From the NCBI RefSeq assembly GCF_020731145.1, contig NZ_JAJFZN010000002.1:496001-560000 (forward strand): a stretch of DNA of 64,000 nt, written 5' to 3'. The first letter of the stretch is position 1, and every line of letters starts with the position of its first letter. Below the pieces are notes generated by a model. The model was not told the origin of the DNA, ran no database searches, and saw only the letters and a program-made list of their open reading frames with translations. Shown in pieces: positions 61,695-62,428 of the stretch. The position numbers were made by a program, and so were the translations under genes. This stretch comes from Sneathiella sp. HT1-7 (lineage in GTDB: Bacteria; Pseudomonadota; Alphaproteobacteria; Sneathiellales; Sneathiellaceae).

Positions 61695-61714
61695 TTCGAC
61701 GAAATAGCAAAGAC

Positions 61715-61744
61715 AAAATGCGGTCGCGTGAGCAGCCGCATTTT
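61715..61744 (+). terminator. Terminator after gatB
   Basis: AAAATGCGG (61715-61723) pairs with CCGCATTTT (61736-61744), loop of 12 bases, then CTTTATCTT. A Rho-independent terminator 20 bases after the gatB stop; its minus-strand side could also end the micro-ORF transcript. Confidence 0.8.
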
Positions 61745-61751
61745 CTTTATC

Positions 61752-61868
61752 TTATGCGTAAGATTGCACCGCCCAGATCAACATTAACGCCGGGAAGGTC
61801 AAGACATAGGCGACTTCACGGAGGTTGGAGAGCCGTTTACTGCGGGCTTTGGTTTTGCGTGAAGACAT
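61752..61868 (-). CDS. 38-residue membrane peptide behind an FNR/FixK-type box
   Basis: A short frame on the minus strand: MSSRKTKARSKRLSNLREVA, then VLTFPALMLIWAVQSYA and stop. Residues 1-17 hold seven Lys/Arg; residues 20-36 form one membrane helix, so the protein would sit N-in. AAGGAT precedes its ATG by about seven bases. A perfect FNR/FixK dyad lies 72 bases upstream (61941-61954), and the gatB terminator gives its end. Size and shape resemble small oxidase- or transporter-associated peptides, but no family is recognised. Confidence 0.6.
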   Translation of the reverse strand: MSSRKTKARSKRLSNLREVAYVLTFPALMLIWAVQSYA

Positions 61869-61940
61869 GATTTATCCTTGAAATACATGAAGAAATTGAA
61901 CTTATGTGCGAGAAAATGTGGTTGTTTCGCATATGCAGCA

Positions 61941-61954
61941 TTGATTTAAATCAA
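61941..61954. promoter_or_regulatory. FNR/FixK-type box
   Basis: TTGATTTAAATCAA is a perfect 14-bp palindrome equal to the FNR/FixK/Anr consensus TTGAT-N4-ATCAA. It lies 72-86 bases before the micro-ORF ATG on the minus strand. With class II activation (centre at -41.5) transcription would start near 61906, leaving a 38-base leader. An oxygen-responsive promoter is inferred. Confidence 0.7.
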
Positions 61955-62002: not shown

Positions 62003-62320
62003 CTAGATCAAGACAATTTCTAACCGGTAGGGTGAGTCCTTTGTGATCTGGATAATCTCTATGTCGTGATTTGTCGGCGTTGATTTACGGTAGGTAACGC
62101 CCCAGGCTGTCACGTCGATGCGGCAGATTAGTCCGTCATATTTCAATGCGACCTGATAGCCAGACGATGGCCCGCGGCACCGGCAGCGGTGATATTTGAA
62201 CGGGGTGAGAATTTCCGGCGGGGGAGACAGCCATTCCACGCTCTCGGTGTCCAGCTTTTGATAGTAGAGGTTTTTATCGTTGATAGTGCTGATCAGGGCG
62301 ATATGGGTTTCCAAGGGCAT
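62003..62320 (-). CDS. Hypothetical protein divergent from recO
   Basis: A 105-residue protein starting at ATG 62320, with an AAGGAAGGAAG ribosome site. It has no membrane segment; a Cys-Arg-Cys-Arg stretch (YHRCRCRGP near 44-52) and the beta-rich YQVALKYDGLICRIDVTAW may bind metal or RNA. No family recognised. A longer in-frame reading upstream overlaps recO and is rejected. Confidence 0.65.
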   Translation of the reverse strand: MPLETHIALISTINDKNLYYQKLDTESVEWLSPPPEILTPFKYHRCRCRGPSSGYQVALKYDGLICRIDVTAWGVTYRKSTPTNHDIEIIQITKDSPYRLEIVLI

Positions 62321-62428
62321 TCTTCCTTCCTTTTTTGTCCCCCTTGGGACGCATAGCCGCTCCGCCTTGTGAGAAAAAGGAGTGCGAATTCTGTTCGGAA
62401 TAACCGCATGATCTGGTAGGCTCATTAA

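Follow-up and report, generated by a model that had tools for sequence, protein, structure and literature searches.

A conserved micropeptide gene of Sneathiella under an FNR-type box with an abutting putative second operator

On the minus strand of the window (the whole 64 kb stretch of Sneathiella DNA analysed here) lies a small gene which, as judged from its conservation, is real and whose product is probably membrane-spanning. Its promoter contains an FNR/FixK-type box and, directly abutting it, a 15-base element, TGYTGCANNTGCGAA, which is new here and was absent from the earlier, sequence-only reading of this DNA. That reading had proposed a membrane micropeptide under oxygen control that assists a terminal oxidase or a transporter; the conserved, probably membrane-spanning micropeptide and its FNR-type box stood, and the assistance to an oxidase or transporter is a conjecture. 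At a probability of about 40%, we take the product to be an accessory membrane peptide in micro-oxic respiration. Small membrane peptides under oxygen control are a known kind, and the libraries that were searched do not contain this family; the paired operator is more unusual than the peptide family itself. One-helix low-oxygen peptides lie below the size limits of annotation and are thus readily overlooked. In the present case the sequence evidence for a gene and its control is clean, and the genus has cultured species. The features of the locus are listed in Table 1.

Table 1. Features of the micropeptide locus (window coordinates)
Feature	Position	Strand	Remark
Micropeptide gene, 38 codons and stop	61752..61868	minus	Frame list, conservation and codon-level test
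Shine-Dalgarno-like AAGGA	61875..61879	minus	5' of the micropeptide ATG; from sequence
Possible -10 region (CACATTTT)	61913..61920	minus	Inferred; near class II spacing; transcription start expected near 61906
Putative second operator element TGCTGCATATGCGAA	61926..61940	minus	Directly abuts the FNR box
FNR/FixK-type box TTGATTTAAATCAA	61941..61954	minus	Palindrome, 72 bases before the ATG; conserved in relatives
Upstream copy of the element TGTTGCGCTCGCGAA	61972..61986	minus	2 mismatches; 46 bases from the other copy, start to start
Hairpin between the micropeptide gene and gatB, which converge	61706..61752	minus	z -2.69; possibly a shared terminator

The frame encodes a product of 38 aa, MSSRKTKARSKRLSNLREVAYVLTFPALMLIWAVQSYA. 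As had been claimed, it possesses a Shine-Dalgarno-like ribosome site before its ATG and one predicted helix, which is given by both hydropathy and AlphaFold. The hydropathy peak covers residues 16-34, with a charge of +6 on its N-side, and the AlphaFold model is one helix over residues 7-37 (pLDDT about 90 over residues 21-38, mean pLDDT 78.3, pTM 0.37). All 20 orthologues showed a 19-residue hydropathy peak behind a net-positive N-terminus. They are 33-43 aa long and, with the starts chosen in this analysis, begin with ATG in 19 cases and with GTG in one. Each genome contains a single copy, except for an extra fragment in G001.

An intact orthologue was found in 20 of the 24 Sneathiella genomes, by a search of 95 relatives and a profile search of all 24. 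The profile search matched 23 of them, including weak matches in G018 and G022 that were not counted and, in G016, a fragment interrupted by a stop. Whether relatives conserve the frame had been named as one of two points on which the gene could fall; the frame is intact in these 20 and shows coding-frame selection. Over a 23-codon core of the 20 rows, pairwise differences were 0.34, 0.23 and 0.60 at the first, second and third codon positions. The substitution score was 6388 in the real frame, while the best of the other five frames, on the opposite strand, reached 1905. For 15 pairs among six genomes, dN/dS ranged from 0.10 to 0.61. The codon comparisons thus indicate that the frame evolves as a protein, and the conservation together with the codon pattern rules out a chance frame. 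A proline, a tryptophan, an alanine and a serine are invariant across the 20 rows. The orthologue and the FNR box are kept together in 20 of the 24 genomes, which is more than chance.

These results bear on two other readings of the locus. One is that a small RNA is what functions here, the frame being incidental or secondary. The expected transcript is short and a hairpin is present, and a PHB-linked small RNA under PhaR, MmgR, is a precedent in the available portion of PMC12542648. Against this stand the codon-level selection in the coding frame and the poor conservation of the leader after the -10 region, and no Rfam match came near any family's threshold, so that we regard a small RNA as very improbable. 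A known RNA family was likewise rejected, as the two Rfam matches (E 0.26 and 0.6) were far under the gathering scores. The other reading is a general membrane-active stress peptide, dampening energy metabolism like YohP or resembling a type I toxin, which would be made on oxygen loss and have no dedicated partner. The peptide is small, basic and hydrophobic with the site of a stress regulator, 4 of the 24 genomes have lost it or carry it broken, and YohP offers a precedent (PMC12719787); but the purifying selection on specific residues suggests a partner, and a single copy per genome, bar the G001 fragment, does not favour it either. We therefore find a partnerless stress peptide quite unlikely.

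The four exceptions differ in what is left at the locus. In G022 and G007 a histidine-rich frame adjoins gatB in place of the micropeptide (L111 1988-2983; L122 about 1-840). G018 retains only a box remnant with one mismatch, and in G016 the box and element are present while the frame is stop-interrupted. The absence in G007 could be an assembly gap, because the contig ends near the micropeptide place; a whole-genome search of G007 also found no copy. In a gatB tree of 21 rows, in which 4 of 18 inner branches were well supported, G018 is joined to the gene-bearing G006 as its sister at 100/100, and its loss is thus firm. G007 is placed near G000 and G019 with weak support, and the placement of G022 rests on 93 residues. 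The simplest reading of these sequences would be an ancestral gene that was lost one to four times.

Outside Sneathiella, neither the class genomes searched nor the single further genome of its family (G024) yielded a convincing homologue. The search of 95 relatives at E up to 10 gave 25 matches, namely the 20 in the genus and 5 outside at E 0.012-1.16, which we read as chance. Among 385 class genomes at E up to 0.1, 16 matches were obtained, five in Sneathiella and eleven elsewhere (E 0.02-0.095); the eleven were read as chance as a group, without individual checking, several having stops or lying inside long frames. The family has no significant Pfam, NCBIfam or PDB match. Single-member chance matches aside, Pfam and NCBIfam gave only weak matches to PetN of cytochrome b6f, a protein known from cyanobacteria and plastids. 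PetN was the only family matched by more than one member (Pfam 3/20, best E 0.027; NCBIfam 4/20, best E 0.013), but the match is not significant over the 20 members and probably reflects common helix composition. The literature searched held no description of the family, a weak negative that for one query covers the best 10 of 5,715 results.

The perfect FNR box claimed 72 bases upstream was confirmed at its place and is kept in all 20 orthologue promoters. The palindrome TTGAT-N4-ATCAA occurs there with no mismatch in 16, one in 3 and two in 1, and lies 66-91 bases before the start. The exact box TTGATTTAAATCAA has one match in the 64 kb window. With up to 3 mismatches the window contains 4 matches vs 3.09 expected, and the other three are therefore at chance level. 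Across the genome of 3.83 Mb there are 17 sites of TTGATNNNNATCAA, some of which fall inside genes, vs 0 for the reversed control pattern. Further FNR boxes of the same genome lie between hemN and ccoN, near narK-narG and near phaC and, with gene identities read by eye, beside a Crp/FNR-like gene and near ubiT/U/V. A 265-aa Crp/FNR-family protein, with N-terminal cysteines read by eye, is encoded before hemN. At L189 6519-8532 an FNR box followed by TGCTGC precedes phaC, and the cluster there, read by eye, contains fabI, pta and an ackA-like gene.

In class II FNR promoters the centre of the box lies near -41.5. A loose scan with no shuffle control placed the start of the best -10-like hexamer 22-24 bases after the box in 17 of the 20 promoters; in the window this hexamer is weak and begins 21 bases after the box. 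The box spacing read from these sequences may fit a class II FNR promoter. For the FnrN/FixK regulons of Alphaproteobacteria, the available part of PMC4999443 gives the motif TTGANCNNGATCAANG, with cco and hemN among the targets. Our box fits this motif in its TTGA...ATCAANG parts, and cco and hemN are common targets. Unlike these regulons, the rest of the abutting element is outside the motif, and that part of the source names no such peptide.

An element like TGYTGCANNTGCGAA follows the box directly, with zero gap, in 17 of the 20 promoters, those of G009, G006 and G020 being without it. These 17 differ from TGCTGCANNTGCGAA at 3 or fewer of 13 positions, and 7 of them at none. As a control, the upstream stretches of ccoN (26 matches with the short fragment L150 of G006 left out, giving 25 rows that include three second copies) showed 6-11 mismatches at the same place, although only the 16 rows with a box of 0-1 mismatch are a fair comparison. 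The ccoN rows of G013 and G020 begin with TGC-rich, element-like runs at 6 of 13 mismatches, and row L145 has no N-terminus, so that its upstream stretch is not a real promoter. Since the consensus derives from the very promoters of the micropeptide, the test favours them. The second ccoN copies of three genomes (L147, L148, L149) have no convincing upstream FNR box, the best reaching 2-3 mismatches.

Of 367 class genomes, three matched a strict pattern of box plus element, each of them a Sneathiella; G004 and G014, with elements that start with TGTTGC, escaped it. In 6 of the 20 genomes, the window included, a second copy of the element with 1-2 mismatches stands across the box, at a distance of exactly 46 bases upstream; in G023 such a copy lies at 41 bases. 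In 4,000 base shuffles of the upstream stretches, 2 mismatches were reached in 0.1% and fewer in none. A conserved upstream frame over the element was also considered and rejected, as no consistent start codon or frame was seen by eye. A second regulator probably acts at the element together with FNR.

The element recurs beyond the micropeptide. TGYTGCNNNTGCGAA gave 84 matches in the 24 genus genomes, compared with 11 for its reversed control. We read the sequence around nearly all of the 84 and grouped the matches by downstream gene, a few by flanking sequence alone. Ten genomes have it upstream of phaA, 12 ahead of a gene of the nitronate monooxygenase family, 10 in the stretch separating aapJ from metC, and 3 ahead of livH; 11 have it at the micropeptide, the broken G016 copy among them. 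The nitronate monooxygenase group says little on the element, because the whole surrounding stretch is nearly invariant. About two dozen of the other 38 matches fall inside frames over 150 aa, and the remainder are intergenic and occur as single or double sites, such as one that in G004 and G008 lies beside a gene read by eye as nikR. In the two clusters that were read over a long stretch (G004 and G018, with Pfam for G004), the phaA element adjoins phaR, a hydrolase gene and phaB. Ten phaA promoters (L163, L167, L174, L179, L181, L195, L198, L205, L218, L224) share, in addition to the element, a conserved AACGTTATTTCGTA-like stretch just downstream.

PhaR was the first candidate for the second regulator. 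Its core is published as YGCR-N-YGCR (PMC12542648) and also given as GCN3GC (PMC10888616), in the portions of both papers available. Like the PhaR/AniA operators described there, the element is TGC-rich with AT-rich arms, and it occurs in the phaR-phaA-phaB cluster; unlike them, its spacing is TGCA-N2-TGCG. The published core was found in only 2 of the 20 micropeptide upstream regions of 150 bases each, so the second regulator is probably a protein other than PhaR. The phaR clusters of G004 and G018 contain 5 published cores each, 2 of the 5 being at the phaR start.

Because the operator is common to phaA, the main rival is a role of the peptide in carbon storage or redox balance, at the PHB granule, the membrane surface or in acetoacetyl-CoA metabolism, under FNR and the second regulator at low oxygen and excess carbon. 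The genes that share TGYTGCNNNTGCGAA (phaA, nitronate monooxygenase, aapJ/metC and livH) and the FNR box that phaC of the same genome also has would agree with it. But the peptide resembles a membrane helix and not a phasin, and G018 retains the phaA element while its peptide is lost. Moreover, as amino-acid transport genes also have the element, it is not storage-specific. A storage role therefore appears unlikely to us. It falls a little short of an even chance, in our estimate, that this genus-only family, with its FNR box and the operators of an undescribed regulator found also at phaA, amino-acid uptake and nitronate monooxygenase genes, is behind an oxygen-plus-metabolite gate. If true, the element would define a new regulon leading from oxygen loss to carbon storage. 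The common second operator gives direct access to a regulator that may connect oxygen sensing with carbon storage and the uptake of amino acids.

For the accessory role in micro-oxic respiration, we infer the following course of expression and action. FNR, active without oxygen, would bind the box as a class II activator. The second regulator would bind the element in the spacer between the box and the -10 region, and in six genomes also the copy across the box, and it may gate expression, most simply as a repressor. The product would be a one-helix inner-membrane peptide of 33-43 residues, with its basic N-terminus probably in the cytoplasm and the helix reaching the C-terminus. The conserved P-x5-WA-x2-S-Y face of the helix would most likely dock on a membrane protein of micro-oxic respiration, where the peptide may act as an accessory or assembly factor; among candidate partners, cbb3 oxidase ranks first.

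The partner is a guess by context, because the peptide has no homology to a known subunit, no respiratory gene neighbours it in the loci read, and three genomes have ccoN without it. All 17 good genomes, those three among them, have ccoN; thus the peptide is dispensable for having cbb3, and the distribution is compatible with a possible optional accessory role. Nitrate reductase is disfavoured as partner, since narG occurs in 9 of the 24 genomes and does not track the peptide. CydX of cytochrome bd is of similar size and has one helix, and an assembly factor or subunit of this oxidase under low-oxygen control would match the peptide in these respects. But no cyd gene lies beside the micropeptide in the loci read, and cydA was not found in G004, G008, G010, G011 and G014, which are 99-100% complete and all have the peptide, so that a cytochrome bd partner is hardly credible. 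CcoM, a 36-aa subunit of the Pseudomonas stutzeri cbb3 oxidase in the available text of PMC10433244, is similar in size and low-oxygen context; unlike CcoM, the peptide is missing from three genomes with ccoN, and no PDB chain matches its profile at E up to 10, a comparison in which CcoM itself was not directly aligned. Replacement of CcoQ is unsupported, as CcoQ-like frames were seen by eye in G022 and G018.

The micropeptide gene sits between the convergent gatB and an upstream frame of about 107 aa on the same strand (62003-62326, minus), next to recO and parC. The protein of this frame lies beside recO in many loci of the genus and has no Pfam or NCBIfam match. A terminator scan found none at the hairpin of Table 1. 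gatB is convergent and lies downstream within about 0.8 kb in 18 of the 20 loci, and was not seen in the locus stretch examined of G005 and G010. In G001 a duplicated gatB 3' end comes first. At L036 6001-6921 (Sneathiella chungangensis) a partial duplication was observed downstream of the micropeptide gene, in which a copy of the gatB 3' end precedes the C-terminal half of another micropeptide, the latter being in frame with antisense gatB. In one clade (L037, L038, L040, L113) a gene read by eye as encoding a methyl-accepting chemotaxis protein, whose membrane part is multi-helix, adjoins the micropeptide gene divergently, and in some of its members a 123-144 aa protein does so as well. Since the adjoining genes are divergently transcribed, the FNR box may serve both sides in this clade.
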